DNA from: Pseudomonas sp. ML2-2023-3 | GTDB taxonomy: Bacteria; Pseudomonadota; Gammaproteobacteria; Pseudomonadales; Pseudomonadaceae | Length of the DNA: 64,000 nt | Direction: 5' to 3' | Assembly (NCBI RefSeq): GCF_037055275.1 | Contig: NZ_CP146343.1 | Span: 4,586,001-4,650,000 of the forward strand | Shown: positions 14,215-47,572 of the stretch, in pieces | Layout of the letters: every line of letters starts with the position of its first letter | Position numbering within the stretch: the stretch's first letter is position 1 | Made by a program: the position numbers and the translations under genes | Notes under the pieces: model-generated | What the model saw: only the letters and a program-made list of their open reading frames with translations | The model's database searches: none | Told to the model about the DNA's origin: nothing

Positions 14215-14275
14215 GTCGGAAAACCTTTGTGGGCTGACCTGAGAATGTGATTCAGGTTTTACATGACAGGGATAG

Positions 14276-14291: not shown

Positions 14292-14407
14292 GTTTTTACA
14301 GCCCCGTATTTCAAGGGTTTGCCGGGTTGCGGACAGCGGCAATGCCAGAAAAGCGGCAACGGTTGACCGCTGACTGCCGCTTTTCTGCCGCTTGGAGCAG
14401 GTTTTTT

Positions 14408-14518
14408 GTAGTCGCTGCCGAAGGCTGCGATAAGGGCCGCAGGCCCTTGAAAAGGTTTTGCACTGATCTCGGGAAACGGGTTGCTGCGCAACCCTTCGCA
14501 GCCTGCGGCAGCGACTAC
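14408..14518. repeat. REP pair, GTAGTCGCTGCCG family
   Basis: Left arm GTAGTCGCTGCCGAAGGCTG and right arm CAGCCTGCGGCAGCGACTAC flank two internal hairpins (GGGCCGCAGGCCC; GGGTTGCTGCGCAACCC). It lies between cheR and the flgB promoter, which otherwise make up a 314-base gene-free gap. Confidence 0.88.
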
Positions 14519-14528
14519 GGATAGAGGT

Positions 14529-15356: not shown

Positions 15357-15368
15357 ATGTCCTGCCTC

Positions 15369-26465: not shown

Positions 26466-26490
26466 CGCCATCGCTTTTGACTTTGCTCTC

Positions 26491-26520
26491 GTGGGAGCGG
26501 GCTTGCTCGCTTCCACAGGG
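26491..26520. repeat. Short REP element, GTGGGAGCGGGCTTGCTC family
   Basis: One full arm followed by a truncated second arm (GCTTCCACAGGG), inside the operon between the SDR and FAH genes. Possible effects on mRNA stability are inference. Confidence 0.7.
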
Positions 26521-26547
26521 CCCTACCCCTTCCAAAAAGGATTGTTT

Positions 26548-27396: not shown

Positions 27397-27410
27397 CAGG
27401 GAGCTGCACC

Positions 27411-28688: not shown

Positions 28689-28712
28689 ACCCACGGGCGG
28701 AGCACAATAATA

Positions 28713-30669
<1,957 letters not shown>

Positions 30670-30725
30670 CCCGCTTCCACACAGAACCATGCAAGTCGCA
30701 CACAACAATAAAAAGGAGATGCGTC

Positions 30726-31961: not shown

Positions 31962-32001
31962 ATGCCGTTGTACTCCACAAAAAAAATAATCGGAGCACCT
32001 C

Positions 32002-33324
32002 ATGTCCAACCCCGTCCTGCAACAGGCGCTGAGTAAAATTCGCTGGCGCATCCTGCCCTTTGTCGCGTTGATGTTCGCGATGGCCATCATCGACCGTTCC
32101 AACATCGGCTTTGCCAAACACGCCTTTCAGGCGGACACCGGCCTGAGCAACGCAGCGTTTGCGTTAGGCGCGGGGATTTTCTTTATCGGCTACGCGGTGT
32201 TCGAAGTCCCCAGCAACCTGATGCTGCACAAGATCGGCGCCCGCATCTGGCTGAGCCGGATCATGGTCACCTGGGGGCTGGTGTCGGCGGCGATGATGTT
32301 TGCCCACGACGAAACCAGCTTTTACATCCTGCGTTTTTTGCTGGGCGTGGCCGAAGCGGGTCTGTCGCCGGGGGTGGTGCTGTACCTGACCTACTGGTTC
32401 CCGCAGAACCAGCGCGGCTCGGCCTACGGCATCTACTATTTCGGCGTACCGGTGTCGCTGATGGTGGGCGGGCCCGTGTCGGGCTGGTTGCTGGAAACCG
32501 CGCAATTCGGCCTCACCGGCTGGCAATGGATGTTTGTGACCGAAGGCCTCGCGGCTTCGATCATCGGCGTGTTTGCGTTCTTCTACCTGACCGACAAACC
32601 CCGCGACGCCAAGTGGCTGAGCCCTGAAGAAAAGGCAGTCATCGAACACGAACTGGAAAAAGAACACCTGCTCAAGGCCAACAAGGGCCCTTCGTCGTGG
32701 CGCGCGGCACTGATCAACCCGGTGGTGCTGTACTTCACCCTGATCTATTTCACGATACAGGTCAGCGTCTATGGGGTGCTGTTCTACCTGCCGACGCGGA
32801 TCGCCGAGTTGCTGGGCACCGGCATTGGCTTGAAAGTCGGCGCACTGACTTCAATTCCGTGGATTGCCACCGTGTGCATGCTGTACATCGTGACTCGCCA
32901 TGCCGACCGCACAGGTCAGCAAACCCGCTTCGCCGCGCTGATGCTGGCATTGGCGGCAGTGGGCATGGTGGGATCGACATTGAGTGGCAGCCTGCCACTG
33001 GTGATTTTGGCGTTCTGCGTGGCAGCCGCCGGTTTTATTACCGTGCAACCGTTGTTCTGGACACTGCCTACCCGCTTTTTGGGCGGCGCGGCGGCGGCCA
33101 GCGGGATTGCGGTGATTGGTGCGCTGGGCAACCTTGGTGGTTTCCTGGCACCCACGGTCAAAACCTGGGCCGAGGGCTACTTCAACAACCCCCATGCAGG
33201 CATGTACTTTTTGGCCGGGACGGCGTTGCTGGGCGCGCTGATGTTGATCCGCTGTGCAAGAACCGGACAAGAACCCGGCATCCAGGTTGATTCACCGTCC
33301 GTGACAGCACCTGCGACACGCTGA
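32002..33324 (+). CDS. MFS transporter, anion:cation symporter family
   Basis: 440 residues, twelve transmembrane segments, ACS-family pattern (FVALMFAMAIIDRSNIGFAKHAF, GYAVFEVPSNLMLHKIGARIWLSRIMVTWG, LLGVAEAGLSPGVVLYLTYWFP) as in GudP, ExuT and tartrate carriers. Probably moves a sugar acid such as L-fuconate or galactonate. It starts 40 bases after fucP with GGAG before the ATG, so likely in the same transcript. Confidence 0.82.
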   Translation: MSNPVLQQALSKIRWRILPFVALMFAMAIIDRSNIGFAKHAFQADTGLSNAAFALGAGIFFIGYAVFEVPSNLMLHKIGARIWLSRIMVTWGLVSAAMMFAHDETSFYILRFLLGVAEAGLSPGVVLYLTYWFPQNQRGSAYGIYYFGVPVSLMVGGPVSGWLLETAQFGLTGWQWMFVTEGLAASIIGVFAFFYLTDKPRDAKWLSPEEKAVIEHELEKEHLLKANKGPSSWRAALINPVVLYFTLIYFTIQVSVYGVLFYLPTRIAELLGTGIGLKVGALTSIPWIATVCMLYIVTRHADRTGQQTRFAALMLALAAVGMVGSTLSGSLPLVILAFCVAAAGFITVQPLFWTLPTRFLGGAAAASGIAVIGALGNLGGFLAPTVKTWAEGYFNNPHAGMYFLAGTALLGALMLIRCARTGQEPGIQVDSPSVTAPATR

Positions 33325-33792: not shown

Positions 33793-35061
33793 TCAGGCGG
33801 GGACAAACGCAGCCTGCGGTGCCTGCGGGGCTTTCGGCTCCTTGAGCAGCGCAAAGTAGGCGAAAGCCGAACACGCAGCCACCACCGCACTGATCACGAA
33901 TGCCGAAGAAAACGAGCCGCTCTGCTGAACGCTGAACCCCGTCAGGATCGGGGCTATGGAGCCCGCCAGATAACCGCCAAAGTTCTGGATCGAACCAAAC
34001 GAAGCGACACGCTCCGACGGCACGATGGTGTTGACGATCATCCACGCCGTGGCGCTGGAGATGTTGATGAAGAACATGGTCAGGCACAGCAGGATCACGC
34101 ACGCCACCACGTTGGTGGTAAACGCCACGATCAGGGTAAACAGCGCCCCGCCCAGCAGGCCCAGAATCACCATCAGTTTTCGGCTGGCCAGTACCCGCAT
34201 GCCCCTCGCCACCAGGCGGTCGCAGCATTTGCCGGCGACGATGGTGCCCAAGGCGCCGAACAGATAAGCCAGAGATATCACCCAGGCCGTGCGGTACAGG
34301 TCCAGGCCATGCTCGCGCTCAAAGTAGCCGGGCAGCCAGGTGAGATTGAGCCAGATCATGTAGATCACGCCCATGAACCCGAGGAATGCACCCCATGTAT
34401 TGCGGTCCTTGAACAGCGAGGTCCAGCGCACTTTCGGCGCCTTGGCCTGCTGCACCGGTACCGGTTCTGCGCGGCCTGTTTCGGCCATGTATTGCGCTTT
34501 GCTTTTGTAGAACTTGAACCAGCACACCGCCAGTAACAGGCCCATCACACCGGTCAGGATGAACATCCCGCGCCAGCCCAGATGCACCATGAATACGGTC
34601 AACAAAGGCGGCGCCAGGCACGGCCCGATGCAGGTCGAGGACCACACCCAGCCGGTTGCCGTGCCCCGCTCCTGGGTGTCGAACCACTCCGACAAGGCCT
34701 TGGCCGCCGAAGGAAAGACCGGTGCCTCGCCAATCCCCAGCAATACCCTCAGCCCGACCAGATGGCCGTAGCTGCTGAATAGCCCGAAAGCCGCCTGCGC
34801 TACCGACCACACCACCAGCGAGCCACCCAGTGCCAGCTTGCTGCCCAGCTTGTCGATCAAGGCACCGAGGGGGAGTTGGGAGAAGGCGTAGGCAATGGAA
34901 AATGCAGAGAGCATCACGCCCATTTGCATCGGGCTGATGGCCAGGTCTTTCTGGATAGTGGTGTTGGCGATGGACAGCGCACTGCGGTCCAGGTAGTTGA
35001 CCACGCCAATCAGGAACAGGAAGAAGATTGTCAGCGTCTTGTAGCTTTTTATTGTTCTCAT
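33793..35061 (-). CDS. MFS transporter, ACS family
   Basis: 422 residues; GAGAGG precedes the ATG. Transmembrane pattern and motifs (FLFLIGVVNYLDRSALSIANTTIQ; AFSQLPLGALIDKLGSKLALGG; RVLLGIGEAPVFPSAAKALSEWF) place it with hexuronate/glucarate carriers (ExuT/GudP). It is transcribed towards the fucose operon, on the same strand as and downstream of the LysR gene. Substrate is likely a sugar acid of the 36-44 kb cluster; this is inferred from position. Confidence 0.82.
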   Translation of the reverse strand: MRTIKSYKTLTIFFLFLIGVVNYLDRSALSIANTTIQKDLAISPMQMGVMLSAFSIAYAFSQLPLGALIDKLGSKLALGGSLVVWSVAQAAFGLFSSYGHLVGLRVLLGIGEAPVFPSAAKALSEWFDTQERGTATGWVWSSTCIGPCLAPPLLTVFMVHLGWRGMFILTGVMGLLLAVCWFKFYKSKAQYMAETGRAEPVPVQQAKAPKVRWTSLFKDRNTWGAFLGFMGVIYMIWLNLTWLPGYFEREHGLDLYRTAWVISLAYLFGALGTIVAGKCCDRLVARGMRVLASRKLMVILGLLGGALFTLIVAFTTNVVACVILLCLTMFFINISSATAWMIVNTIVPSERVASFGSIQNFGGYLAGSIAPILTGFSVQQSGSFSSAFVISAVVAACSAFAYFALLKEPKAPQAPQAAFVPA

Positions 35062-35177: not shown

Positions 35178-36134
35178 TCAAGATGTCTGGCGAGCACCGC
35201 GCAGGGCATCGGGACCACTTAACAGGGCATCGATAAAGGCTTTGGCAGACCACTGAGGCACTTCGTTGCGCCGGGTAATCACGCCGTAATCCGCCAGTAC
35301 CAGGGGAAACGGCAACGCCAGACGGGTCAAGCGCCCGGCCTGGATTTCCGGCTCGACCATCGACTCCGCCAGCATGGCCACCGCAGGCGTTGTTTGCAGC
35401 AGTTGCATCGTGGTTTGCAGGGACACGGTTTCCACGGTGTTTTCAGGGGTTTGCATACCCGCCTCGACAAAGGCTTTTTCTACCCGCGCCCGCATCGGTG
35501 TGCCCGTGGGGTAAATCACCCAGGGCCAACTGCCGAGTTCGGCCAGGGGGACTTCGCTGGCCCCCGCCAACGGATGCTGACTGCCGGTGACCAGACACAA
35601 CGGCTCCGGTGCCAGCGCCTGGAACTCGAACAGTTCACGGTGACGGTCGAGGGTAAACCGGGCCACCACCAGGTCCAGTTCCTTGTGTTCAAGCAGGGTC
35701 AGCATGTTGGCACTGGTGCCTTCAAGCACTTGCACGGTGAGCAACGGCCACTGCTGCTTGACCCTCACAATCGCCGCGGGCACCGCCAGAGCCGTTGCCG
35801 CATAGATAGTGCCGACCTTCAGCAGGCCATGCCCGCCCTGGCGCAGATGATTGATCTGGCTGACGAACTGGCCGGTATCGTTCAACGCGATCTGGGCGAA
35901 CCGGGCCACGTGGGTACCCAGATCGGTAAGCGTCATGCTGCGCGGCAAACGGGCAAAGACGTCGAAACCCAATTGGTGCTCGATCTCACGCAGCATCTTG
36001 CTGACTGCTGGCTGGCTGATGCTCATTTCCTGCGCGGTGGCATGCATGTTTTGCGTGCGCGCCAGCGTGTCGATAAGCACCAAATGGCGAAACCGCAGCC
36101 AGTTGCACAGTTGGTTAAACCCGACATCCGCCAT
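35178..36134 (-). CDS. LysR-family transcriptional regulator
   Basis: 318 residues from ATG 36134, which has a strong GGAGG site; an upstream in-frame start at 36173 has none. N-terminal winged helix (about 10-70; FRHLVLIDTLARTQNMHATAQEMSISQPAVSKMLREIEHQLGFDVF) and a substrate-binding domain (about 95-310). It is divergent from the SDR at 36241 with about 106 bases between, the usual arrangement for a LysR activator of the divergent operon. It resembles the GbpR/CbhR-type regulators of sugar metabolism. Confidence 0.85.
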   Translation of the reverse strand: MADVGFNQLCNWLRFRHLVLIDTLARTQNMHATAQEMSISQPAVSKMLREIEHQLGFDVFARLPRSMTLTDLGTHVARFAQIALNDTGQFVSQINHLRQGGHGLLKVGTIYAATALAVPAAIVRVKQQWPLLTVQVLEGTSANMLTLLEHKELDLVVARFTLDRHRELFEFQALAPEPLCLVTGSQHPLAGASEVPLAELGSWPWVIYPTGTPMRARVEKAFVEAGMQTPENTVETVSLQTTMQLLQTTPAVAMLAESMVEPEIQAGRLTRLALPFPLVLADYGVITRRNEVPQWSAKAFIDALLSGPDALRGARQTS

Positions 36135-36240
36135 CCGATAACCTCCGGTTATTAAGTCCTGAGAATATCTCATTGGCGATTATCGCAAAGCAACTTTAGT
36201 GTGAAGGGGTTGCGCCAAATAATAACAACGGACTCTTGTC

Positions 36241-36981
36241 ATGAACCTAGCCAACAAACGCGTTCTGATCACCGCTGCAGCGCAGGGCATAGGCCGCGCA
36301 TCGGTACTGGCCTTTCGGGATGCCGGCGCTCAGGTCATCGCCACCGACCTGCATATCGAAGCATTGCACGACATTCCCGGCATTCAAACCCTGTCTCTGG
36401 ACGTGACCCGTGCCTCGGACATTGACGCGATCTGCCAACAGGTGGGCAACGTGGACGTGCTGTTCAACTGCGCCGGTTACGTGCACAGCGGTGCCGTCCT
36501 TGAGTGCGACGAACAGGCCTGGCAATTCTCTTTCGACCTCAACGTAACGGCCATGTACCGGATGATCCGTGCCTTCTTGCCAGGCATGTTGAGCAACGGT
36601 GGTGGCTCGATCATCAACATGGCTTCGGTGGCCTCCAGCGTCAAAGGTGTGCCCAACCGCTTTGCCTACACCGCCAGCAAAGCCGCCGTGATCGGCCTGA
36701 CCAAATCGGTGGCCGCCGACTACGTAGGCCAGGGCATTCGCTGCAACGCCATTTGCCCCGGCACGGTGGACTCCCCGTCGCTGCGCCAGCGCATCGCCCA
36801 GCAGGCACTTGAGCAAGGGCGCTCCGAAGCCGAGGTGTACCAGGCTTTCGTCGACCGCCAGCCCATGGGCCGCATTGGCAACGCTGAAGAAATCGCCCGG
36901 TTGGCGCTGTACCTGGCCAGCGATGCCAGCAGTTACACCACCGGCACGACCCAGGTGATTGATGGCGGGATGAGCAACTGA
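36241..36981 (+). CDS. SDR dehydrogenase, paralogue of the fucose-operon SDR
   Basis: 246 residues, same length as the protein at 25725 and aligning without gaps; blocks such as NVTAMYRMIRAFLPGM and ICPGTVDSPSLRQRI are identical. Catalytic YTASKA and AAAQGIG are present. Probably oxidises C4 of a 2-keto-3-deoxy sugar acid with NAD. Because the neighbours differ, its substrate may be a pentonate or another deoxy acid instead of fuconate. First gene of the cluster controlled by the LysR regulator. Confidence 0.78.
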   Translation: MNLANKRVLITAAAQGIGRASVLAFRDAGAQVIATDLHIEALHDIPGIQTLSLDVTRASDIDAICQQVGNVDVLFNCAGYVHSGAVLECDEQAWQFSFDLNVTAMYRMIRAFLPGMLSNGGGSIINMASVASSVKGVPNRFAYTASKAAVIGLTKSVAADYVGQGIRCNAICPGTVDSPSLRQRIAQQALEQGRSEAEVYQAFVDRQPMGRIGNAEEIARLALYLASDASSYTTGTTQVIDGGMSN

Positions 36982-36994
36982 AACCAGACTCACT

Positions 36995-37065
36995 GTAGTC
37001 GCTGCCGAAGGCTGCGATGGGTAGCGCAGCTACCCCGCTTTTGAAGGGCCTGCGGCAGCGGCTAC
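36995..37065. repeat. REP element, GTAGTCGCTGCCG family
   Basis: Left arm GTAGTCGCTGCCGAAGGCTG, right arm TGCGGCAGCGGCTAC, with an internal GGGTAGC-GCA-GCTACCC hairpin. It sits between the SDR and FAH paralogues, the same slot that in the fucose operon holds a REP of the other family. Confidence 0.85.
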
Positions 37066-37107
37066 AGGAAATGGCTGCACTCTTCTTATTTGGATAAAGG
37101 AGCTTTT

Positions 37108-37956
37108 ATGAAACTGCTGCGCTACGGCGATAAAGGTCAGGAAAAACCCGGTCTGCTGGATGCTCAAGGCAATATCCGTGATGTGTCGGCGCACATCGCC
37201 GATGTCGCAGGCTCCGCGCTCAACCCCGAAAGCCTGGCCGCACTCAGCAAGATCGACCCCGCCACCCTGCCGCTGGTCAGTGGTTCGCCCCGTATCGGCG
37301 CCTGTGTCGGCCAGGTCGGCAAGTTCATCTGCATCGGTCTCAACTATGCGGACCACGCCGCAGAGTCCGGTCTGGCCGTGCCGTCGGAACCGGTGGTGTT
37401 CAGTAAATGGACCAGCGCCATCTGCGGCCCGAACGATAACGTAGAAATTCCCCGCGACTCGACCAAGACCGACTGGGAAGTCGAGTTGGGCGTGGTGATC
37501 GGCAAGGGCGGCCGCAATATCAACGAACACAACGCACTGGAACACGTGGCCGGTTACTGCGTGATCAACGATGTGTCCGAACGCGAATGGCAGCTGGAGC
37601 GTGGCGGCACCTGGGACAAGGGCAAGGGGTTCGACACCTTCGGCCCCCTCGGCCCGTGGCTGGTGACCCGTGATGAAATCACCGATCCACACCAGCTCGA
37701 CCTGTGGCTAGAGGTAGATGGACAGCGCTACCAGAACGGCAATACCCGCACGATGGTGTTCCAGATCCCGGCATTGATTGCCTACCTGAGCCGCTGCATG
37801 TCGCTGCAACCAGGCGATGTGATTTCCACCGGTACGCCACCGGGTGTGGGCCTGGGCGTCAAGCCGTCGCCGGTCTATCTGCGCCCGGGTCAGGAAATGC
37901 GCCTGGGCATCAGCGGCCTGGGCGAACAGCGCCAGCGCACCGTGCAGGCCGACTGA
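37108..37956 (+). CDS. FAH-family hydrolase, paralogue of the fucose-operon hydrolase
   Basis: 282 residues from ATG 37108 (AAAGGAG upstream), colinear with the protein at 26548 and highly similar (MKLLRYGDKGQE; GKFICIGLNYADHAAESG; DWEVELGVVIGKGGRNI; GDVISTGTPPGVGLGVKP). Metal-ligand acidic residues are kept. Expected to split a 2,4-diketo-3-deoxy acid into pyruvate plus a short hydroxy acid: lactate from C6 deoxy acids, glycolate from C5 acids. Confidence 0.8.
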   Translation: MKLLRYGDKGQEKPGLLDAQGNIRDVSAHIADVAGSALNPESLAALSKIDPATLPLVSGSPRIGACVGQVGKFICIGLNYADHAAESGLAVPSEPVVFSKWTSAICGPNDNVEIPRDSTKTDWEVELGVVIGKGGRNINEHNALEHVAGYCVINDVSEREWQLERGGTWDKGKGFDTFGPLGPWLVTRDEITDPHQLDLWLEVDGQRYQNGNTRTMVFQIPALIAYLSRCMSLQPGDVISTGTPPGVGLGVKPSPVYLRPGQEMRLGISGLGEQRQRTVQAD

Positions 37957-37994
37957 TTCACCGCTCAAACAACTATAAGAAACAGGGGCTGTAC

Positions 37995-38969
37995 ATGAGA
38001 ATTCTAATCACCGGCGGTACCGGCTTTATCGGCAAGCAACTGGCTCAGCGTCTGCTTGACCTGAACACCCTGACCCTCGAAGGCCAGGCACCTCGTGCCA
38101 TTGAACGCATCGTGCTGTTTGATGCCTTTGCGGGCGAAGACCTGCCCAGTGATCCGCGCATCGAACTGGTGACCGGTGATGTGGCTGACCCTGAAGTCAT
38201 CGCCCGGGTGACTGACGGCGTGGATCTGGTATGGCACCTGGCAGCGGTGGTCAGCTCGGCTGCCGAGGCGGATTTCGACCTCGGCATGCAGGTCAACCTT
38301 CACGGCCTGATGTTGCTGCTCGAAACCCTGCGCAAACAGGGCAACGCACCGCGCTTTGTGTATGCCAGCGGCTTCGCCGTATTTGGCGGCACGCTGCCGC
38401 CTGTGGTCGATGACAACACCGTACTCACCCCTCAGTCCTCCTACGGCATGCAAAAAGCCGTGGGCGAACTGCTGGTGGCCGACTATGCGCGCAAGGGCTT
38501 TGTCGATGGCCGCGTGCTGCGCCTGCCAACGGTGGCCGTGCGCCCCGGCAAGCCGAACAAAGCGGCATCGACCTTCTTCAGCTCGATCATCCGCGAACCG
38601 CTGGCAGGCCTGCCTGCCGTCTGCCCGGTGCGCCCGGACACCCAGGTGTACCTGACCTCGCCGCGTCGCATTATCGAATCGATGTTGCTGGGCATGACCC
38701 TGTCGCCGCAAACCCTGGGCAACGAACGCATCATCCCGCTGCCGGGTGTGACCACCACCGTGGCGGACATGGTCTCGGCGCTGCAACGGGTCGCCGGTGA
38801 GGACGTCACCCAACTGATTCGCTGGGAGCCGGACGCCACCATCCAGCGCATCGTCGAAAGCTGGCCGAGCAAGGTCCAGGCCCCTCGCGCCCGGGCACTG
38901 GGCTTTACCGCCGACCCGGACTTCGACGCCATCGTGCGCGCCCATATCGAGGATACGGCCCCCAAATAA
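37995..38969 (+). CDS. NAD-dependent epimerase/dehydratase family, D-erythronate dehydrogenase-like
   Basis: 324 residues from ATG 37995. Extended SDR: MRILITGGTGFIGKQLAQRL, VDLVWHLAAVVSSAAEADFD, catalytic YGMQK and the C-terminal region VYLTSPRRIIESMLLGM. The closest known type by motif is DenD, which oxidises D-erythronate at C2. It could oxidise another aldonate in this cluster. Lies 38 bases after the FAH gene. Confidence 0.75.
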   Translation: MRILITGGTGFIGKQLAQRLLDLNTLTLEGQAPRAIERIVLFDAFAGEDLPSDPRIELVTGDVADPEVIARVTDGVDLVWHLAAVVSSAAEADFDLGMQVNLHGLMLLLETLRKQGNAPRFVYASGFAVFGGTLPPVVDDNTVLTPQSSYGMQKAVGELLVADYARKGFVDGRVLRLPTVAVRPGKPNKAASTFFSSIIREPLAGLPAVCPVRPDTQVYLTSPRRIIESMLLGMTLSPQTLGNERIIPLPGVTTTVADMVSALQRVAGEDVTQLIRWEPDATIQRIVESWPSKVQAPRARALGFTADPDFDAIVRAHIEDTAPK

Positions 38970-38980
38970 CCCCACACCTC

Positions 38981-39067
38981 TGTGGGTGCGGGCTTGCTCG
39001 CGACGGGATCGATGCGGTTGTTCAGTGACACCGCGTCGCCTTTATCGCGAGCAAGCCCGCTCCCACA
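38981..39067. repeat. REP pair, GTGGGTGCGGGCTTGCTC family
   Basis: Full inverted pair with a stretch matching those at 33693 and 43193 (ACACCG-GTCGC centre). Between the DenD-like and MFS genes. Confidence 0.9.
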
Positions 39068-39120
39068 AAAAGCAAAAAAGCTCGCGTTACACACAACAAT
39101 AAAAACTGAGGCCGTGCGAT

Positions 39121-40491
39121 ATGACCACAACGCCACTTCCCGATGTCTCCGACATCGAACAACAGACGATCAAGCGCGTTACCAAACGCATGATCCCCTT
39201 TCTTATCCTGCTGTTTGTGGTCGCCTTCCTGGACCGCAACAACGTCGGGTTCGCCGCACTGCGGATGAACGAAGACATCGGCATCAGCCAGACCATTTAT
39301 GGCCTGGGCGCGGGTATTTTCTTCCTCGGCTACTTCATGTTCGAAGTGCCGAGCAACATTCTGCTGCACCGCTACGGCGCCCGTGTCTGGATTGCACGGA
39401 TCATGGTGACCTGGGGCATCATCGCAGGGGCCATGGGCTTTTTGCAGACGCCCGTGCACTTCGTCTCCCTGCGCGTACTGCTGGGTATCGCTGAGGCCGG
39501 GTTCTTTCCGGGGGTCATTTACCTGCTGTCGCTGTGGTTCCCGAGCCGTTACCGCGCCCGCATGATCGCTACCTTTTACCTGGGCGTTCCCATTGCACAA
39601 ATCATCGGCGCGCCCCTGTCGGTAGGCCTGATGGAACTGGGCGATGCCTGGGGCTTGGTCGGCTGGCGCCTGATGTACATCGTTGAGGCCGTACCGGCCG
39701 TGATCCTCGGTGTGGTGTGCTACTTCTACCTCACCGACCACCCGGCGGATGCTCACTGGCTGACCGACAAACAGCGCAACTGGCTGATCAACACCCTGGC
39801 CCAGGAAGAGCGCAACAAACCGCTGGTGGTGGGCATTCAACCGACCAAAGGCCAGATGATCCGCAAGGCACTGTGCAACCGTCAGGTATGGCTGCTGGCG
39901 CTGGTGTATTTCGGCATCACGTCGGGCTCCAACGCGATGAACTTCTTCATGCCCACCGTACTGGCCTCGTTCCGTGGCTCGTTCGGGCTGGAGATCGGCC
40001 TGATGCAGAACGGCTTGATCACCGCCATCCCGTACGCCGTCGCCGCTGTGGCGATGATCTGGTGGAGCCGTCGCTCTGATCGCCTGCAAGAACGTCACTG
40101 GCATGCCGGCGGCGCCGCCATGCTCGCGGCCGTGTCCATTGCCGTGGCGCTGTGGCTCAACCAGCCGTGGATCATCGTCGTCGGTTTCATCCTTCTGGCG
40201 ATGGGTGTTTACAGCGCGATCAACGTGTTCTGGGCCGTCCCGGGGCAAGTACTGACGGGCGTCGGGGCCGCCGTGGGGATTGGCCTGATCAACTCCATCG
40301 GTAACCTCAGCGGCTTTATCGGCCCTTACCTGACCGGCTATCTGTTCACCGTCACCGGCAGCTACACCCCAGGCTTCATGGTGATTGCTGCACTGGTCGG
40401 CCTGGGTGGCCTGGGCATGGTGCTGATGCCACGCAACAAGGTGTCGCAGATTGGCGAGCAAATGGTCCCGGCGGCTGGAGGCAAAGCATGA
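39121..40491 (+). CDS. MFS transporter, ACS family (sugar acid)
   Basis: 456 residues; typical ACS layout (MIPFLILLFVVAFLDRNNVGFAALRM; GYFMFEVPSNILLHRYGARVWIARIMVTWG; LLGIAEAGFFPGVIYLLSLWFPSRYRARMIA), about twelve transmembrane segments. The stop overlaps the next start by 4 bases (ATGA), so it is translationally coupled to the GarR-like reductase. Likely imports the aldonate used by this cluster. Confidence 0.84.
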   Translation: MTTTPLPDVSDIEQQTIKRVTKRMIPFLILLFVVAFLDRNNVGFAALRMNEDIGISQTIYGLGAGIFFLGYFMFEVPSNILLHRYGARVWIARIMVTWGIIAGAMGFLQTPVHFVSLRVLLGIAEAGFFPGVIYLLSLWFPSRYRARMIATFYLGVPIAQIIGAPLSVGLMELGDAWGLVGWRLMYIVEAVPAVILGVVCYFYLTDHPADAHWLTDKQRNWLINTLAQEERNKPLVVGIQPTKGQMIRKALCNRQVWLLALVYFGITSGSNAMNFFMPTVLASFRGSFGLEIGLMQNGLITAIPYAVAAVAMIWWSRRSDRLQERHWHAGGAAMLAAVSIAVALWLNQPWIIVVGFILLAMGVYSAINVFWAVPGQVLTGVGAAVGIGLINSIGNLSGFIGPYLTGYLFTVTGSYTPGFMVIAALVGLGGLGMVLMPRNKVSQIGEQMVPAAGGKA

Positions 40492-41372
40492 GCCTGCCAA
40501 CCGTAGCCTTCATCGGTACCGGGATCATGGGCCAGCCCATGGCCCGCAACCTGCTGCACGCAGGCTTCCCGGTGCGGGCATGGAACCGTTCTTCCGCCAG
40601 GGCGCAGGCACTCGCGGCACAAGGTGCCGAGGCTTTTCAGGCCCCGGCGCATGCCGCAAACGGCGCCCAGGTGCTGATCTGCATGCTCAGCGATGGCCCG
40701 ACCTGCGACGAGGTGCTGTTTGGCGAGAACGGCGCTGCCCTGGCCTTGGCGCCGGGTGCGCTGGTGATTGTGATGAGTTCGATCCCGGTCGACACCGCCG
40801 CCGCACAGGCACGGCTATGTGCCGAACGGGGCCTGCGCTACCTCGACGCCCCGGTGTCGGGGGGCGAGCGTGGGGCGCGGGAAGCCAGCCTGGCGATCAT
40901 GGTCGGTGGTGAAACCGTGGCCTTCGAGCAAGGCCGCGAGGTGCTGGCCGCCATGGGCCGCCCGGTACACGTCGGCCCGGCGGGCACTGGCGAACTGTCC
41001 AAACTGGTCAACCAGTTGATTGTCGCCAGCACCATCGCCACCGTCGCCGAAGGCCTGCTGCTGGCCGAGCGCGGCGGCGCCGACCCGTCAAAAGTCCACG
41101 AAGCGTTGATGGGGGGCTTCATCGATTCGCCGATCTGGCGTCAACACGGCCAACGCATGCTTAACAACGACTTCACCCCCGGCGGCCCGGCCAAGTGGCA
41201 ACTCAAGGACACCCGGACCGCCCTCGCCCAAGCGCAAAAGCTGGGCCTGAACCTGCCCGTGGGCACCCTGGTGGACAGTCTGTTTGCAGCGATGGTCGAG
41301 GCCGGTGACGGCGAACTCGACCACGCCGGACTGATCCGCCAAGTGCGCCGCAACAACCCTTTGCCCGAATAA
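40488..41372 (+). CDS. 3-hydroxyisobutyrate dehydrogenase family (GarR/LtnD-like)
   Basis: 294 residues. Rossmann start VAFIGTGIMGQPMARNLLHAG, substrate motif YLDAPVSGGERGAREASLAIMVGG near residue 120, catalytic Lys in GELSKLVNQLI near 170. The family includes tartronate semialdehyde reductase (GarR) and L-threonate dehydrogenase (LtnD). Which reaction applies here cannot be read from sequence. Coupled to the upstream transporter. Confidence 0.8.
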   Translation: MSLPTVAFIGTGIMGQPMARNLLHAGFPVRAWNRSSARAQALAAQGAEAFQAPAHAANGAQVLICMLSDGPTCDEVLFGENGAALALAPGALVIVMSSIPVDTAAAQARLCAERGLRYLDAPVSGGERGAREASLAIMVGGETVAFEQGREVLAAMGRPVHVGPAGTGELSKLVNQLIVASTIATVAEGLLLAERGGADPSKVHEALMGGFIDSPIWRQHGQRMLNNDFTPGGPAKWQLKDTRTALAQAQKLGLNLPVGTLVDSLFAAMVEAGDGELDHAGLIRQVRRNNPLPE

Positions 41373-41388
41373 TCTGCTGGAGCCTGCC

Positions 41389-43173
41389 ATGACCGATTCA
41401 ACCCCACGCCGCCTGCGCAGCCAGCTGTGGTTCGACGATCCAAGCCACGCCGACCTTACTGCGCTGTACGTTGAGCGCTACATGAACCAGGGCCTGACCC
41501 GGGCCGAACTGCAATCGGGACGGCCCATCATCGGTATTGCCCAGACCGGCAGCGACCTCACGCCCTGCAACCGCCACCACATCGAACTGGCCAAGCGGGT
41601 CAAGGACGGTATTCGCGACGCGGGGGGCATTCCGATGGAATTCCCGGTGCACCCGATCGCCGAACAGTCACGTCGCCCAACCGCGGCGCTGGATCGCAAC
41701 CTCGCCTATCTGGGCCTGGTGGAAGTGCTTCACGGCTACCCGCTGGACGGCGTCGTGCTGACCACCGGCTGCGACAAGACCACCCCGGCCTGCCTGATGG
41801 CGGCGGCCACCACTGACTTGCCCTCTATCGTGTTGTCCGGCGGGCCAATGCTCGACGGCTGGCACAAAGGCCAGCGCATCGGCTCCGGCACCGTCCTGTG
41901 GCATGCGCGCAACCTGCTCAGCGCAGGGGAGATCGACTACGAAGGGTTCATGACCCTGACCACGGCTTCATCGCCGTCCGTGGGCCACTGCAACACGATG
42001 GGCACCGCGCTTTCCATGAACGCACTGGCCGAGGCACTGGGCATGTCGCTGCCTGGTTGCGCGAGCATTCCGGCACCGTACCGCGAGCGCGGTCAAATGG
42101 CCTATGCCACCGGCATGCGCATCGTCGACCTGGTGCGCGAAGACGTGCGCCCATCGCACATCATGACCCACGCCGCCTTTGAAAACGCCATCGCCGTGGC
42201 CTCGGCACTGGGCGCGTCCACCAACTGCCCGCCACACTTGATTGCCATTGCCCGCCACAGTGGCATCGATCTGTCGCTGGAAGACTGGCAGCGTGTGGGC
42301 GAAGACGTCCCGTTGCTCGTCAACTGCATGCCTGCCGGTGAATACCTTGGCGAAAGCTTCCACCGCGCGGGCGGCGTACCGGCAGTGATGCATGAACTGG
42401 ACAAGGTTGGGCGCCTGCACCGCGACTGCCTCACCGTCAGTGGCCGCAGCATGGGGGACGTGGTTGCCGACTGCGTCACCGGCGATCGCGACGTGATCCG
42501 CTCATACGAAGATCCGCTGATGCACCGCGCCGGTTTTATCGTACTCAGCGGTAACTTCTTCGACAGCGCCATCATGAAAATGTCGGTGGTGGGTGAAGCC
42601 TTCCGCAAGACCTATCTCAGCGACCCGTTGCAACCCAACAGTTTCGAAGCGCGGGCCATTGTGTTCGAGGGGCCCGAAGACTATCAGGCGCGCATCAACG
42701 ACCCGACGCTGGACATCGATGAACGCTGCATTCTGGTGATTCGCGGCTGCGGCACTGTCGGTTTTCCCGGCAGTGGCGAGGTGGTGAACATGGCACCGCC
42801 TTCCAACCTGATCAAGGCAGGGATCGACTCGCTGCCGTGCATGGGCGATGGCCGTCAAAGCGGCACCTCGGCCAGCCCGTCGATTCTCAACATGTCTCCG
42901 GAGTCTGCCGTGGGCGGCGGCCTGTCGTTGCTGCGCACGGGGGATCGCCTGCGCGTCGACCTGAATGCGCGCAGTGTCAATTTGCTGGTGGACGAAAGCG
43001 TGCTCAACGAGCGTCGCCAGGAACCCCTGCCACCGCTGGCCCCGTCGCAAACGCCGTGGCAGGAACTGTATCGCCAACTGGTAGGCCAGTTGTCCACGGG
43101 CGGCTGCCTGGAACCGGCAACACTGTACTGGCGCGTGATCCCGGAAAACGGCCCGCCCCGCCACTCTCACTAA
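41389..43173 (+). CDS. IlvD/Edd-family dehydratase (aldonate dehydratase)
   Basis: 594 residues, size and motifs of the pentonate dehydratase branch (L-arabonate / D-xylonate dehydratases): GIAQTGSDLTPCNRHH, TTGCDKTTPACLMAAA, GHCNTMGTALSMNALAEALGMSLPG, and C-terminal IKAGIDSLPCMGDGRQSGTSASPSILNMSPE. The Cys residues at these motifs bind the Fe-S cluster. It would convert an aldonic acid to its 2-keto-3-deoxy acid, feeding the SDR-FAH pair or the XylX-like enzyme downstream. Begins 16 bases after the reductase. Confidence 0.87.
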   Translation: MTDSTPRRLRSQLWFDDPSHADLTALYVERYMNQGLTRAELQSGRPIIGIAQTGSDLTPCNRHHIELAKRVKDGIRDAGGIPMEFPVHPIAEQSRRPTAALDRNLAYLGLVEVLHGYPLDGVVLTTGCDKTTPACLMAAATTDLPSIVLSGGPMLDGWHKGQRIGSGTVLWHARNLLSAGEIDYEGFMTLTTASSPSVGHCNTMGTALSMNALAEALGMSLPGCASIPAPYRERGQMAYATGMRIVDLVREDVRPSHIMTHAAFENAIAVASALGASTNCPPHLIAIARHSGIDLSLEDWQRVGEDVPLLVNCMPAGEYLGESFHRAGGVPAVMHELDKVGRLHRDCLTVSGRSMGDVVADCVTGDRDVIRSYEDPLMHRAGFIVLSGNFFDSAIMKMSVVGEAFRKTYLSDPLQPNSFEARAIVFEGPEDYQARINDPTLDIDERCILVIRGCGTVGFPGSGEVVNMAPPSNLIKAGIDSLPCMGDGRQSGTSASPSILNMSPESAVGGGLSLLRTGDRLRVDLNARSVNLLVDESVLNERRQEPLPPLAPSQTPWQELYRQLVGQLSTGGCLEPATLYWRVIPENGPPRHSH

Positions 43174-43192
43174 ACACTATGGACACATGACC

Positions 43193-43280
43193 TGTGGGAG
43201 CGGGCTTGCTCGCGATGCAGGCGGCGCGCTCTCTCAGGTACACCGCAGCGGCGTCATCGCGAGCAAGTCCGCTCCCGCAC
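43193..43280. repeat. REP pair, GTGGGAGCGGGCTTGCTC family
   Basis: Full inverted pair; right arm slightly diverged (GCAAGTCCGCTCCCGC). Between the dehydratase and the XylX-like gene. Confidence 0.88.
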
Positions 43281-43306
43281 TGCCCATTTTTTCAAGGATC
43301 AGGCCT

Positions 43307-44494
43307 ATGCAAACGCTGCAATTGACCGTAGAAAACTCCCTGCCGAACGACTGGCAGCGCGCGACGCTGGTGGGTCGTGTATGGCTACCTGGCGAGCGTG
43401 GTGGTCCGGCCGTGGTGGTGATTCGAGACGGCGAGGTGATCGACTGCACCGCGCACTTCGCCACCCTGAGCGCGCTACTGGAAAGCGACAAACCGCTGCA
43501 AAGCGTACGCGAAATCAGCGGTACGGCCTTGGGTACGATTCAGGCCCTGCTGGCCAACAGTGGCGAGCAGCGTGACATGGCCAAGCCCTATCTGCTGGCC
43601 CCTGCAGACCTGCAAGTGATCAAGGCCGCAGGCGTGACATTTGCCGCCAGCATGATCGAGCGAGTCATCGAAGAAAAAGCAGGCGGCGATGCCCTGCGTG
43701 CTCAAGAGATCCGCGCCCTGGTACAGGACGTCATCGGTGACAACCTGCGCGACCTGCTCCCCGGCTCGCCCGAGGCCATGCGCCTCAAGCAGGTGCTGAT
43801 CGAACAGAACATGTGGTCCCAGTACCTGGAAGTCGGTATCGGCCCGGACGCCGAGATTTTCACCAAGGCCCCGATACTGGCGGCGGTGGGCAGCGGTAAT
43901 GCCATCGGCATTCACCCGGGTTCAAGCTGGAACAACCCGGAACCGGAAGTCGTGCTCGCGGTGGACAGCCAGGGCCGGATTCACGGCGCAACCCTGGGCA
44001 ACGACGTCAACCTGCGCGACTTCGAAGGCCGCAGTGCGCTGCTGCTGAGCAAGGCCAAGGACAACAACGCATCCTGCGCACTGGGACCGTTTATTCGCCT
44101 GTTCGACGAACACTTCAGTCTCGACGACGTGCGCCAATGCGAAGTGACCTTGCGCGTCGAAGGCACGGACGGCTACGTACTGGACGGCAAGAGTTCCATG
44201 AACCAGATCAGCCGCGACCCGGCCAATCTGGCGGAGCAAACCCTCAATGCCAACCACCAGTACCCGGACGGCTTTGTGCTGTTTCTCGGCACCCTGTTCG
44301 CGCCCACAGAAGACCGCGACCATTCGGGTCAGGGGTTCACCCACAAGGCGGACGACGTAGTGAGCATTTCGTCACCCGCCCTGGGCGCCCTGCACAATCG
44401 CGTGACGGGTAGCGACCAGGCTCCACAATGGGCATTCGGGGTTGGGGCACTGATGAAGAACCTGGCGGGGCGCGGGCTGCTGGGCCAGGCCTGA
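43307..44494 (+). CDS. FAH-superfamily protein, XylX-like 2-keto-3-deoxy-pentonate dehydratase candidate
   Basis: 395 residues from ATG 43307 (CAAGGATCAGG upstream). Longer than the other two FAH proteins in the window and only distantly related. The FAH core has VGIGPDAEIFTKAPILAAVGSGNAIGI, WNNPEPEVVLAVDSQGRI, GNDVNLRDFEGRSALLLSKAKDNNASCALGPFIR. Length and motifs fit Caulobacter XylX, which dehydrates 2-keto-3-deoxy-xylonate to 2-ketoglutaric semialdehyde. The dehydrogenase that would finish that route is not in the window. Last gene of the cluster. Confidence 0.75.
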   Translation: MQTLQLTVENSLPNDWQRATLVGRVWLPGERGGPAVVVIRDGEVIDCTAHFATLSALLESDKPLQSVREISGTALGTIQALLANSGEQRDMAKPYLLAPADLQVIKAAGVTFAASMIERVIEEKAGGDALRAQEIRALVQDVIGDNLRDLLPGSPEAMRLKQVLIEQNMWSQYLEVGIGPDAEIFTKAPILAAVGSGNAIGIHPGSSWNNPEPEVVLAVDSQGRIHGATLGNDVNLRDFEGRSALLLSKAKDNNASCALGPFIRLFDEHFSLDDVRQCEVTLRVEGTDGYVLDGKSSMNQISRDPANLAEQTLNANHQYPDGFVLFLGTLFAPTEDRDHSGQGFTHKADDVVSISSPALGALHNRVTGSDQAPQWAFGVGALMKNLAGRGLLGQA

Positions 44495-44553: not shown

Positions 44554-44630
44554 TGGTGTCCCAGGCGGGGTTCGAACCTGCAACCTTCCCCTTAGGAGGG
44601 GGATGCTCTATCCAATTGAGCTACTGAGAC
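44554..44630 (-). tRNA. tRNA-Arg (anticodon CCT)
   Basis: 77-base cloverleaf including encoded CCA. Acceptor stem GTCTCAG / CTGGGAC, D-arm GCTCAATTGGATAGAGC, anticodon loop CTCCTAA, T-arm GCAGGTTCGAACCCCGC (two non-Watson-Crick pairs allowed). It reads AGG codons. Confidence 0.95.
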
Positions 44631-45089: not shown

Positions 45090-45246
45090 AACAAAAACTA
45101 AGTACACATTGTTTCGTGGCCTGCTACATAAAAGCAGGCATACCGCGAATTCTCACAACCAGTGATTTCCGCTGCCGTGACGAAGATTTGTCGAGCCAAC
45201 GCTCATGAACAGTCATCACACCAGCGGACATCAGGAGCTTGCCAGA

Positions 45247-46788
45247 ATGCGTTCAAGACTCTCCGATACCCTCGCTCTGGATTTACCTTCACCGGTTTCA
45301 ACTCCCCTCCCCGACTCCCTGGACGCTACTGCATCCACCCTGGCGCTCAGTCCGCGCCTGCACAACAGTGACCTGGCCCCCACTAAAACCGAAGGCCGCC
45401 GCTGGGGCCGCTACAGCATCTTTGCCCTGTGGACCAACGATGTGCACAACATCGCCAACTACTCGTTCGCCATCGGGCTTTACGCCCTGGGCCTCAACGG
45501 CTGGCAGATCCTGCTTTCACTCGGGATCGGCGCTCTGCTGGTGTTCAACTTCATGAACCTGTCGGGCTATATGGGCCAGCGCACCGGCGTGCCCTTCCCG
45601 GTCATCAGCCGGATAAGTTTCGGCATTCATGGTGCGCAGATTCCTGCGCTGATACGCGCGGTCATTGCTATCGCCTGGTTCGGTATTCAGACGTATCTCG
45701 CCTCGGTGGTGTTACGGGTGCTACTGGTGGCCGTGCATCCTGGTTTCGACGCTTACGACCATGACTCGATCCTTGGCCTGTCGAGCTTGGGCTGGGTGTG
45801 TTTTGTCGCGATCTGGCTGGTGCAGCTGACGATCCTGGCCTACGGCATGGAAATGGTTCGCCGCTACGAGGCGTTTGCCGGACCGGTCATTTTACTGACG
45901 GTACTGTGCCTGGCAGGCTGGATGTACTTTCAGGCCAACGGCACCATTGCCTGGTCAGACCGCGTGCCCTTGAGCACCGCCGAGGTGTGGCGCAACGTGT
46001 TTGCCGGAGCCGCGCTGTGGCTGGCGATCTACGGCACGCTGATCCTGAATTTCAGTGATTTCTCACGTTCATCGCCGTGCTGCAAAACCATCAAGGTTGG
46101 TAATTTCTGGGGCCTGCCGGTGAACATTCTGGTGTTTGCCGGTATCACCGTCCTGCTGTGCGGCGCCCAGTTTCAAATCAACGGCACCATTATCGAAAGC
46201 CCGACGCAGATTATCGCGTCGATCCCGAACACCTTCTTTCTGGTGCTGGGCTGCCTGGCATTCCTGATTGTGACGGTGGCGGTGAACATCATGGCCAACT
46301 TCGTCGCACCGGCTTTTGTGCTGAGCAACCTGGCACCCAGGCATCTGACGTTCAAGCGCGCCGGACTGATCAGCGCAACCCTGGCAGTGCTGATCCTGCC
46401 GTGGAATCTCTATAACAGCCCGCTGGTTATCGTGTACTTCCTGTCCGGCCTGGGTGCCCTGCTTGGCCCGCTGTACGGGGTGATCATGGTCGACTACTGG
46501 CTTGTACGAAAAGGCCGTATCGACGTGCCGGCGTTGTACAGCGAAGACCCGAGCGGCGCTTATTACTACAGCCGAGGCGTTAATTTACGCGCCGTCGCGG
46601 CGTTTATTCCTGCTGCTCTGATCGCCATCGTGCTGGCATTGGTGCCAGGTTTTCATACTGTTTCGCCGTTCTCCTGGATGATCGGGGCCGGCATCGCGGC
46701 AATGCTTTACCTGATCATCGCCAGGCGCCAACCCCACTACGCCCACGTCAGCGGCGAGTCGATCGCGGTCGACAACGCTGGCCATTGA
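45247..46788 (+). CDS. NCS1-family nucleobase/hydantoin permease
   Basis: 513 residues from ATG 45247, which has CAGGAG 9-10 bases upstream; an earlier ATG at 45205 adds 14 residues without such a site. About twelve transmembrane segments. NCS1 marks are WTNDVHNIANYSFAIGLYALG, GVPFPVISRISFGIHGAQIPALIRAVIAIAWFGIQT and the LINFSDFSR-like segment LILNFSDFSRSSP. Such carriers import uracil, allantoin, hydantoins or cytosine with cations. The neighbouring racemase relative suggests hydantoin or allantoin. Confidence 0.87.
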   Translation: MRSRLSDTLALDLPSPVSTPLPDSLDATASTLALSPRLHNSDLAPTKTEGRRWGRYSIFALWTNDVHNIANYSFAIGLYALGLNGWQILLSLGIGALLVFNFMNLSGYMGQRTGVPFPVISRISFGIHGAQIPALIRAVIAIAWFGIQTYLASVVLRVLLVAVHPGFDAYDHDSILGLSSLGWVCFVAIWLVQLTILAYGMEMVRRYEAFAGPVILLTVLCLAGWMYFQANGTIAWSDRVPLSTAEVWRNVFAGAALWLAIYGTLILNFSDFSRSSPCCKTIKVGNFWGLPVNILVFAGITVLLCGAQFQINGTIIESPTQIIASIPNTFFLVLGCLAFLIVTVAVNIMANFVAPAFVLSNLAPRHLTFKRAGLISATLAVLILPWNLYNSPLVIVYFLSGLGALLGPLYGVIMVDYWLVRKGRIDVPALYSEDPSGAYYYSRGVNLRAVAAFIPAALIAIVLALVPGFHTVSPFSWMIGAGIAAMLYLIIARRQPHYAHVSGESIAVDNAGH

Positions 46789-46843
46789 TACGTTTGCGGT
46801 CTGGCCAATTCAGACCGCCCACTCTTGATTTGAAGGAGCCCCC

Positions 46844-47572
46844 ATGCGAATTCTCGTGGTCAATGTCAACACGACCGACAGCATCACCCAGGCCATTGCA
46901 CGTCAGGCGCAGTCCGTCGCCGCGCCGGGCACCGAAATCATCGGGCTGACGCCCGGTTTCGGCGCCGAGTCGGTTGAGGGGAATTTTGAAAGTTATCTGG
47001 CCGCAATCGCGGTGATGGACTGCGTCATGTCCTACGACCAGCCCTTCGATGCCGTGATACAGGCCGGGTATGGCGAGCATGGCCGTGAAGGGTTACAGGA
47101 ACTGCTCAACGTGCCCGTGGTGGACATCACTGACGCAGCGGCCAGCACCGCCATGTTTTTGGGCCGCGCCTATTCGGTTGTCACCACGCTGGATCGCACC
47201 GTGCCGCTGATTGAAGATCGCCTGAAACTGTCCGGGCTCTGGTACCGCTGTGCATCGGTGCGCGCCAGCGGCCTTGCCGTTCTGGAACTCGAATCTTCGC
47301 CGCAACGCGCGGTTGAAGCCATTGTTCACCAGGCAGAACTGGCCGTCAGCGAGGACAAGGCAGAGGTCATTTGCCTGGGCTGCGGCGGTATGGCGGGCCT
47401 TGATGAGCAGATTCGCCAGCGCACCGGCGTGCCCGTGGTCGATGGCGTTACCGCTGCGGTGACCATTGCCGAGTCGCTGGTTCGCCTGGGGCTGTCGACG
47501 TCAAAAGTACGCACTTACGCGACCCCACGGCCCAAGGTTATCAGTGGATGGGCCGAACGTTTCGGGCGATAA
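46844..47572 (+). CDS. Asp/Glu/hydantoin racemase family protein
   Basis: 242 residues. Family fold: RILVVNVNTTDSITQAI, VPVVDITDAAASTAMFLG, ICLGCGGMAGLDEQI. Hydantoin and allantoin racemases use two cysteines; the second is present in LGCGGM, but the first, normally in a CFGDPG-like loop, is Gly75 in AGYGEHGREG. Two-base racemisation may therefore be lost or changed. It follows the NCS1 permease by 55 bases with AAGGAG before the ATG. No hydantoinase, carbamoylase or allantoinase is nearby. Confidence 0.8.
   Translation: MRILVVNVNTTDSITQAIARQAQSVAAPGTEIIGLTPGFGAESVEGNFESYLAAIAVMDCVMSYDQPFDAVIQAGYGEHGREGLQELLNVPVVDITDAAASTAMFLGRAYSVVTTLDRTVPLIEDRLKLSGLWYRCASVRASGLAVLELESSPQRAVEAIVHQAELAVSEDKAEVICLGCGGMAGLDEQIRQRTGVPVVDGVTAAVTIAESLVRLGLSTSKVRTYATPRPKVISGWAERFGR

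Follow-up and report, generated by a model that had tools for sequence, protein, structure and literature searches.

The window analysed here is a stretch of 64,000 nucleotides from the 5.4 Mb genome of Pseudomonas sp. ML2-2023-3 (C1:4586001-4650000). Between positions 33793 and 44494 it carries a sugar-acid catabolic cluster of nine full-length open frames, each with a strong family match among Pfam and NCBIfam profiles or solved relatives. Seven of these genes run along the plus strand and encode, in this order, an SDR (36241-36981), an FAH-family hydrolase (37108-37956), a DenD-like dehydrogenase (37995-38969), an ACS/MFS sugar-acid transporter (39121-40491), a GarR/LtnD-like beta-hydroxyacid dehydrogenase (40488-41372; PF03446 and PF14833), an IlvD/Edd sugar-acid dehydratase of the XylD type (41389-43173) and a XylX-like protein (43307-44494). 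A LysR-type regulator (35178-36173; PF00126 and PF03466), which diverges from the catabolic genes, lies on the minus strand together with a second MFS transporter of the sugar-acid type (33793-35061). Both transporters match PF07690 and remain below the cut-off of the D-galactonate transporter family model TIGR00893 (395 bits), with 314 bits for the one between DenD and GarR and 271.7 bits for the other. The starts of FAH and XylX were set from homologue alignments at ATG 37108 and ATG 43307, respectively; the mechanical open reading frames begin at TTG 37090 and at 43187, the latter crossing a REP-like palindrome. The host can be assigned to the P. fragi group, since the nine proteins of the cluster share 91-99% identity with their counterparts in Pseudomonas fragi D12, P. 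bubulae and P. fragi F1801 (loci L005, L007 and L008). The gene set is as an initial annotation of this DNA had listed it, and the general reading given there, a sugar-acid cluster working through a 2-keto-3-deoxy acid with a cleavage exit (SDR and FAH) and a dehydration exit (XylX-like), was supported by our analyses. The core route is already known, and the new part is the group of DenD, ACS transporter and GarR, hereafter referred to as the module.

The initial annotation had considered that the route itself might be undescribed. However, IlvD, XylX, LysR, SDR and FAH match the xylDX clusters of Pseudomonas, such as that of strain BP8 (PMC10107873), and Route III of Herbaspirillum huttiense (PMC6336799). 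In H. huttiense, D-2-keto-3-deoxypentonate (D-KDP) is converted with NAD+ to glycolate by C785_RS13675 and C785_RS20550, and is dehydrated to alpha-ketoglutaric semialdehyde by C785_RS13680 (PMC6336799). Both systems have the D-KDP branch point and enzymes of the SDR, FAH and XylX-like (COG3970) types in common. In H. huttiense, however, the genes are spread over several clusters, the dehydratase in the cluster concerned is a D-arabinonate dehydratase of the UxaA/GarD family, and no DenD/GarR pair is mentioned in the sections examined (PMC6336799). The closest described gene set found was the xyl cluster of BP8, a strain of the P. putida group in which XylD, XylX, XylA, "dehydrogenase 1" (the SDR) and a "lyase" (the FAH protein) were raised on xylose in proteomics (PMC10107873). 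It shares xylD, xylX, SDR and FAH with the window; additional genes in the BP8 cluster are xylA and one for a relative of hydroxypyruvate reductase called "dehydrogenase 2", and no DenD is mentioned in section 13 of the paper (PMC10107873). The xylDXA Weimberg clusters of P. taiwanensis VLB120, P. putida M2 and BP6 are likewise similar in their XylD and XylX orthologues, LysR regulator and MFS transporter, whereas the window cluster is without the xylA gene for alpha-ketoglutaric semialdehyde dehydrogenase (KGSADH), has SDR and FAH, and adds the module.

To place the cluster within the genus, 199 Pseudomonas genomes were surveyed, and a XylD-type IlvD of at least 82% identity was found in 44 of them (45 genomes passed the E limit; G164, at 47% identity, is left out of this count). 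The neighbourhoods of 43 of the 44, all except the window's own, were examined, mostly over about 8-10 kb on each side and less at contig ends. Matches of neighbouring genes were counted if they spanned over half of the query length, at an identity of at least 27% here and of at least 30% for the DenD loci described below. All ten neighbourhoods with an IlvD of 90-98% identity carry the gene set of the window, with the second MFS transporter absent from one (L155). The other 33, with an IlvD of 82-85%, resemble the described xylDX clusters and are termed canonical; they were taken as xylDXA clusters by gene content, so that their identities to the window (82-85% for XylD, 62-75% for XylX) refer to these genus loci and not to the named strains themselves. 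XylX was present in 31 of the canonical loci, LysR in 27 (47-56% identity), SDR together with FAH in 12, and a XylA-type aldehyde dehydrogenase in nine, the last being undetected in the examined stretch of the remaining 24. Ten of the 33 have SDR and FAH with no XylA-type dehydrogenase in the examined stretch; Route III genes without a neighbouring xylA are therefore common in the genus and not peculiar to the window. The module was found in none of the 33, with just one DenD-like match of 36% (L189) and one GarR-like match of 28% (L158).

Among solved relatives, the window IlvD scored best against the D-xylonate dehydratase of Caulobacter (5OYN, 869.7 bits) and second against 7M3K (841.8 bits), which is named a galactonate dehydratase; by homology it is thus of the IlvD/Edd D-xylonate dehydratase type of the Weimberg pathway. 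In an alignment of 68 module-type, canonical and outside sequences, several of them near-copies of one another, GDGRQSG and the three Cys motifs are conserved throughout, with a T/A variant adjoining the first motif, and the C-terminal His is kept in 67, the window copy included. The 26 module-type sequences differ as a group from the 33 canonical ones in only 12 columns, all of them outside the Cys motifs and GDGRQSG. Since the motifs are conserved and so few columns differ, the same substrate, D-xylonate, is expected. IlvD-family sugar-acid dehydratases were reported to accept only 2R,3S acids, and one of them, PuDHT, was active on D-xylonate but inactive on D-ribonate, D-arabinonate and D-lyxonate (PMC9314677). 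The XylX-like protein, for its part, matches 9KKT (446 bits) and, at 72 bits, the archaeal 2-keto-3-deoxy-D-arabinonate dehydratase 2Q18; its Pfam score is 35.5 bits against a cut-off of 23.9, and no NCBIfam model matched. These matches, together with its orthologues in the canonical loci, identify it by homology as a 2-keto-3-deoxypentonate dehydratase of the Weimberg type.

The SDR and FAH genes have counterparts in another cluster of the same window (25725-33324), which encodes an SDR (25725-26465), an FAH protein, an enolase-family protein (PF13378/PF02746), an L-fucose dehydrogenase, a FucP-like permease, an MFS transporter and an L-fucono-lactonase-like protein that is below its model cut-off, i.e., a predicted non-phosphorylating L-fucose cluster. 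The two SDRs are 72% and the two FAH proteins 83% identical in amino acid sequence, indicating that these paralogous pairs share an origin; they probably arose by duplication, after which one pair specialised in L-fucose (C6) and the other in a C5 acid. The D-xylonate-type cluster differs in using IlvD where the first has the enolase-family protein, in having no L-fucose dehydrogenase, lactonase-like or FucP-like genes, and in a residue of its SDR. This SDR aligns at 336 bits with chains of the H. huttiense L-2-keto-3-deoxyfuconate (L-KDF)/D-KDP 4-dehydrogenase (8Y4J, 8XWK and 8Y11), in whose structure Arg148, Arg192 and Arg214 bind the substrate and Trp252 packs against the methyl group at C6 of L-KDF (PMC11199699). 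Met often occupies the place of Trp252 in L-KDF dehydrogenases; the W252M mutant loses activity on L-KDF, and the enzyme is inactive on analogues without the C5 hydroxyl (PMC11199699).

When these residues were placed on the window SDR by alignment, with an inferred constant offset of five, the three arginines of the Route III enzyme were found in all 43 SDR rows compared. At the Trp252 place, Met is present in 41 rows (the SDR of the window cluster and those of module and canonical xyl loci), which are not 41 independent cases, as some species were reached through two collections (e.g., L006 and L149). The two rows with Trp are the SDR of the L-fucose cluster and its P. psychrophila counterpart in L011. 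Because Met replaces the Trp that contacts the C6 methyl in the L-fucose copy, the alignment points to a C5 substrate, putatively D-KDP; Met at this place lowers the likelihood of a C6 substrate, although it is still compatible with one. Action of this SDR-FAH pair on C6 deoxy acids was thus disfavoured, Trp being restricted to the fucose-type copies. Passage of C4 acids through the whole cluster, with IlvD acting on L-threonate, was also disfavoured, as the H. huttiense L-KDF dehydrogenase needs the C5 hydroxyl (PMC11199699). The FAH protein matches the L-2,4-diketo-3-deoxyrhamnonate hydrolase 8GSR (323 bits) and retains the NYxDHAxES motif with its His/Glu pair, NYADHAAES aligning with NYEDHAIES of 8GSR, but reaches only 432 bits against NF053535 (cut-off 500); it would cleave 5-hydroxy-2,4-dioxopentanoate to pyruvate and glycolate.

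The initial annotation had also argued that the absence of a KGSADH favours the cleavage exit. Profile annotation of the cluster proteins indeed revealed none in the cluster, but the argument is weakened by the rest of the genome, in which five of 21 aldehyde dehydrogenase matches are KGSADH candidates by homology, all of them outside the cluster. Four of these (L105-L108, 527-571 aa) are 51-70% identical to an Acinetobacter gene beside IlvD-XylX, and their type adjoins IlvD-XylX in Acinetobacter, Psychrobacter and some canonical Pseudomonas clusters; an L106- or L108-like enzyme of 72-74% identity is encoded in nine canonical xyl loci. The fifth, L095, shares 70% identity with the enzyme whose gene adjoins IlvD-XylX in Paraburkholderia sprentiae; against the KGSADH model NF042993 it reaches 528 bits, short of the cut-off of 770. 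With these candidates the alpha-ketoglutarate exit does not appear to be closed. On the glycolate side, the genome encodes the glycolate oxidase GlcD, Gcl and, about 1 kb from Gcl, a tartronate-semialdehyde reductase. Two membrane pyrroloquinoline quinone (PQQ) dehydrogenases of the gcd type score over the cut-off and could make xylonate outside the cell.

The distribution of the module was analysed from the best 80 of 540 DenD relatives, of which 28 (L005-L032) are module-type loci and 52 are other DenD loci. GarR is encoded near 26 of the 28 module DenDs and an ACS orthologue (at least 60% identity) near 25; 21 of the loci also contain IlvD, and 18 contain SDR with FAH. The MFS transporter of the 33793-35061 type is present in 18 of the 19 Pseudomonas-type module loci (L005-L022 and L032). 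LysR, SDR, FAH, DenD, ACS, GarR, IlvD and XylX occur all together in 14 of the 28 loci. As the full set recurs in these 14 loci and in the ten IlvD neighbourhoods of at least 90% identity, some of which share species with the DenD loci, the genome-neighbourhood search that the initial annotation had proposed indicates that the cluster is not a chance union.

Several characters set the module proteins apart from those of the denD-ltnD-otnK-otnC-otnI system, which we take to be the tetronate pathway and which likewise combines a DenD-superfamily protein with a beta-hydroxyacid dehydrogenase. In the stretches examined, OtnK was found in none of the 28 module DenD loci, as against 41 of the 52 others (among the 11 without it are six Herbaspirillum loci and some short stretches). 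A maximum-likelihood tree places all 29 module DenDs (28 loci plus the window) on one side of a branch supported at 100/100, so that the window DenD belongs to a clade of its own and not with the OtnK-linked DenDs. Twelve columns separate the two groups, including Gly126 versus Ser126 and Trp80 versus Phe80 (module versus other); residue 126 lies beside what is, judging from the extended-SDR family, presumably the catalytic serine. GarR remains below both the L-threonate dehydrogenase model NF043037 (LtnD; 167.8 bits, cut-off 350) and the tartronate-semialdehyde reductase model TIGR01505 (GarR/GlxR; 265.5 bits, cut-off 340.75). After its second strand it carries WNR[ST], in the window and in all 26 module loci with GarR, whereas Asp stands at this place in most LtnD-type proteins of otn loci and in the DenDs of both groups. 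We take WNR[ST] to be an NADP-type and Asp an NAD-type signature, so that GarR would be NADP-type and DenD and LtnD NAD-type.

The module accompanies D-xylonate genes beyond the P. fragi group. In P. japonica (L016) it occurs with IlvD-XylX, and no SDR-FAH was found at the locus. In Acinetobacter (L025-L028 and L087), LysR-DenD-ACS-GarR is divergent from XylX-IlvD; in L023, about 5 kb separates LysR from DenD. L025 and L087, the two loci inspected for an aldehyde dehydrogenase gene, both have one after IlvD, and no SDR or FAH orthologue was found in the examined stretch of the five loci L025-L028 and L087, save one distant 33% SDR match in L025. The order in Psychrobacter (L030) is DenD-GarR-XylX-IlvD-aldehyde dehydrogenase. 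Thus the module accompanies D-xylonate genes alongside either exit, Route II or Route III. Some of the loci have features of their own. L087 (NZ_CP104448.1), in which the module lies beside XylX-IlvD-aldehyde dehydrogenase, is catalogued as a plasmid of Acinetobacter baumannii but, judging from its size of 4.09 Mb, is probably a mislabelled chromosome. A Dak1/Dak2 kinase (14113-15828) and a Crp-type regulator are encoded near the Caballeronia module (L024). Six Herbaspirillum DenD relatives (L033, L035, L037, L039, L040 and L047; 53-55% identity) form a clade of their own, with no OtnK in the stretch examined, and possibly represent a third DenD context. A frame in L021 (12413-13144) was considered as a GarR replacement and rejected; it has no Pfam match and, although a stretch alignable with it exists in L022, is probably not a gene.

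Among the 199 Pseudomonas genomes, module DenD (at least 83% identity) is present in 13, and 11 further genomes with DenD matches of 38-51% were not counted. All 13 also encode XylD at 82% or more, linked or not (hypergeometric chance value 6e-10, uncorrected for kinship), whereas 31 of the 44 XylD genomes are without module DenD. This asymmetry, with DenD always accompanied by XylD and XylD often without DenD, suggests a feeder upstream of XylD. In two of the 13 (G115 and G155), as well as in the genomes that carry L013, L021 and L022, XylD is encoded elsewhere in the genome, at 84-85% identity; L013 and L014 belong to P. viridiflava, and the genome of L014 is the one listed as G115 and as G200.

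We therefore propose that the window carries a catabolic cluster for D-xylonate, and possibly also for other pentonates, in which an accessory module funnels further substrate into a core pathway, an explanation to which we assign, as a whole, a probability of about 55%. Its firmest part is the core, very probably a D-xylonate pathway with two exits by homology. The families and their linkage are observed, and the following reactions and substrates are predicted from them. Gcd would oxidise D-xylose in the periplasm to D-xylonate, which the IlvD protein (XylD) would dehydrate to D-KDP. At the first exit, Route III, the SDR would oxidise C4 of D-KDP with NAD+, and FAH would split the resulting 2,4-diketo acid into pyruvate and glycolate. 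At the second, the Weimberg exit, the XylX-like enzyme would dehydrate D-KDP to alpha-ketoglutaric semialdehyde, and aldehyde dehydrogenases encoded elsewhere would form alpha-ketoglutarate.

The role of the module as a funnel into XylD is put forward more tentatively, at somewhat short of even odds. The ACS transporter would bring in a second sugar acid of a configuration unsuited to XylD, the NAD-type DenD would oxidise it to a keto-aldonate, and the NADPH-type GarR would reduce this to D-xylonate, the two enzymes forming a two-step epimerase ahead of XylD. NAD-linked oxidation followed by NADPH-linked reduction is a usual pattern of redox epimerisation. D-xylonate differs from D-ribonate at C3 only and from D-lyxonate at C2 only, which makes these two acids, through C3 and C2 inversion respectively, the candidates. 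D-ribonate is the C5 homologue of D-erythronate (2R,3R), the substrate of DenD enzymes, and action at C3 is common among beta-hydroxyacid dehydrogenases; for these reasons D-ribonate is slightly favoured, while D-lyxonate fits if DenD and GarR both act at C2. With a little more reserve still, we suggest that the module is a previously undescribed aldonate-epimerising system, turning D-ribonate or D-lyxonate into D-xylonate, by which one Weimberg/Route III trunk could serve several pentoses. Among the literature matches listed, in which subscription papers are mostly outside coverage, no title or abstract opening joins XylD with a DenD-GarR pair, and no title answers for D-ribonate or D-lyxonate, epimerisation and P. 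fragi; the exact gene set may well be undescribed, as initially supposed. Acetic acid bacteria form 4-keto-D-ribonate, in a paper that has P. fragi only in its reference list (PMC9171043), and P. simiae oxidises 2-deoxy-D-ribonate at C3 through other genes (PMC6365646).

Certain observations weigh against this proposal. In eleven of the 13 genomes with both genes, DenD and XylD belong to one linked cluster, so that these genomes are not independent, and the two unlinked genomes alone among the 199 give a chance value of 0.03. Asaia (L029) has DenD and GarR, and XylD was not found there at E<=1e-100; the genomes of L021 and L022 have DenD, and GarR was not found in them at E<=1e-50. The dehydratase is just 68% identical in Caballeronia and 64% in Halomonas, and the cofactor assignments are signature-based. 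The other observations of this kind bear on the main alternative, which we regard as unlikely, namely that DenD is an ordinary D-erythronate 2-dehydrogenase feeding OtnI-OtnK-OtnC encoded elsewhere and GarR either a tartronate-semialdehyde reductase or a dehydrogenase of the L-threonate type; the cluster would then unite a C5 with a C4 pathway by chance or for regulatory reasons. The initial annotation had assigned DenD and LtnD-type enzymes to the oxidation of C4 acids, and DenD does pass the curated D-erythronate dehydrogenase model NF043036 (ErythonDh; 457.9 bits, cut-off 325). Moreover, LtnD, OtnK, OtnC and OtnI are each encoded over the curated cut-off in the same genome (L246 4332-9656, C1:3546-3552 kb), a full L-threonate pathway that could take up 2-oxo-tetronate, and no second DenD was found there at E<=1e-60. 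An OtnK-family kinase is present in 8 of the 13 module-DenD genomes compared with 71 of all 199 (hypergeometric 0.046, Fisher 0.069). However, no OtnK-family match was found in the other five, and G022 carries a DenD beside OtnK (49% identical) in addition to its module DenD. The C4 assignment is rendered doubtful by the separate, OtnK-less clade with its Gly126, by the score of GarR below the LtnD cut-off and by the LtnD that the genome already has, and the constant company of XylD in all 13 genomes also argues against it.

Less likely again is a cluster for D-xylonate only, in which GarR would reduce the tartronate semialdehyde derived from Route III glycolate, DenD would act on an overflow product, and both would be accessory housekeeping enzymes. 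Route III does give glycolate (PMC6336799), glcD and gcl are in the genome, and the GarR family includes tartronate-semialdehyde reductases. Nevertheless, the reductase about 1 kb from gcl is a separate 2-hydroxy-3-oxopropionate reductase, 44% identical to GarR, that passes TIGR01505 with 396.7 bits, whereas the cluster GarR stays under the cut-offs of the GarR models; GarR as the glyoxylate-pathway enzyme of this genome was thus disfavoured. DenD and GarR are also kept together in the Acinetobacter and Psychrobacter loci without SDR or FAH orthologues in the examined stretch, where no glycolate would therefore be made in that way, and 31 of the 44 XylD genomes manage without module DenD. The least likely alternative is that the module supplies a broad IlvD with D-gluconate or D-galactonate made from a hexonate, e.g., of the D-mannonate or D-allonate type, for although the Caulobacter D-xylonate dehydratase also turns over D-gluconate in vitro (PMC9314677) and 7M3K is the second-best solved relative of IlvD, the SDR has Met at the C6-contact place, unlike the L-fucose copy, and XylX and SDR are C5 enzymes in described pathways.

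A tRNA-Arg(CCT) gene (44554-44630, minus strand) closes the cluster just past XylX, and it is followed in the window by a permease gene of the cytosine/purine/allantoin type and then a gene of the Asp/Glu/hydantoin racemase family (45205-47572). REP-like palindromes were spotted by eye in the gaps at 36982-37107, 38970-39120 and 43174-43306; a 16-base REP core, GCGGGCTTGCTCGCGA, has five copies on each strand of the window, including copies in the latter two gaps. Scans for promoters and terminators stayed at the shuffle level (3 found versus 3.1 expected and 10 versus 8.4).

Credit for the oxidative pentose pathway goes to Weimberg, who worked on Pseudomonas fragi (PMC9795676, PMC11252243), whereas its most-studied genes are from Caulobacter (PMC11252243). 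The cluster provides a concrete gene set for the P. fragi group, and its two predicted exits suggest that the picture of alpha-ketoglutarate as the only end product in P. fragi may be incomplete. If the proposed function of the module is correct, a two-enzyme epimerase would explain how other pentonates, e.g., D-ribonate, reach XylD-type dehydratases that need the 2R,3S configuration, and the automatic label "D-erythronate dehydrogenase" would be corrected for a whole clade of DenD proteins.

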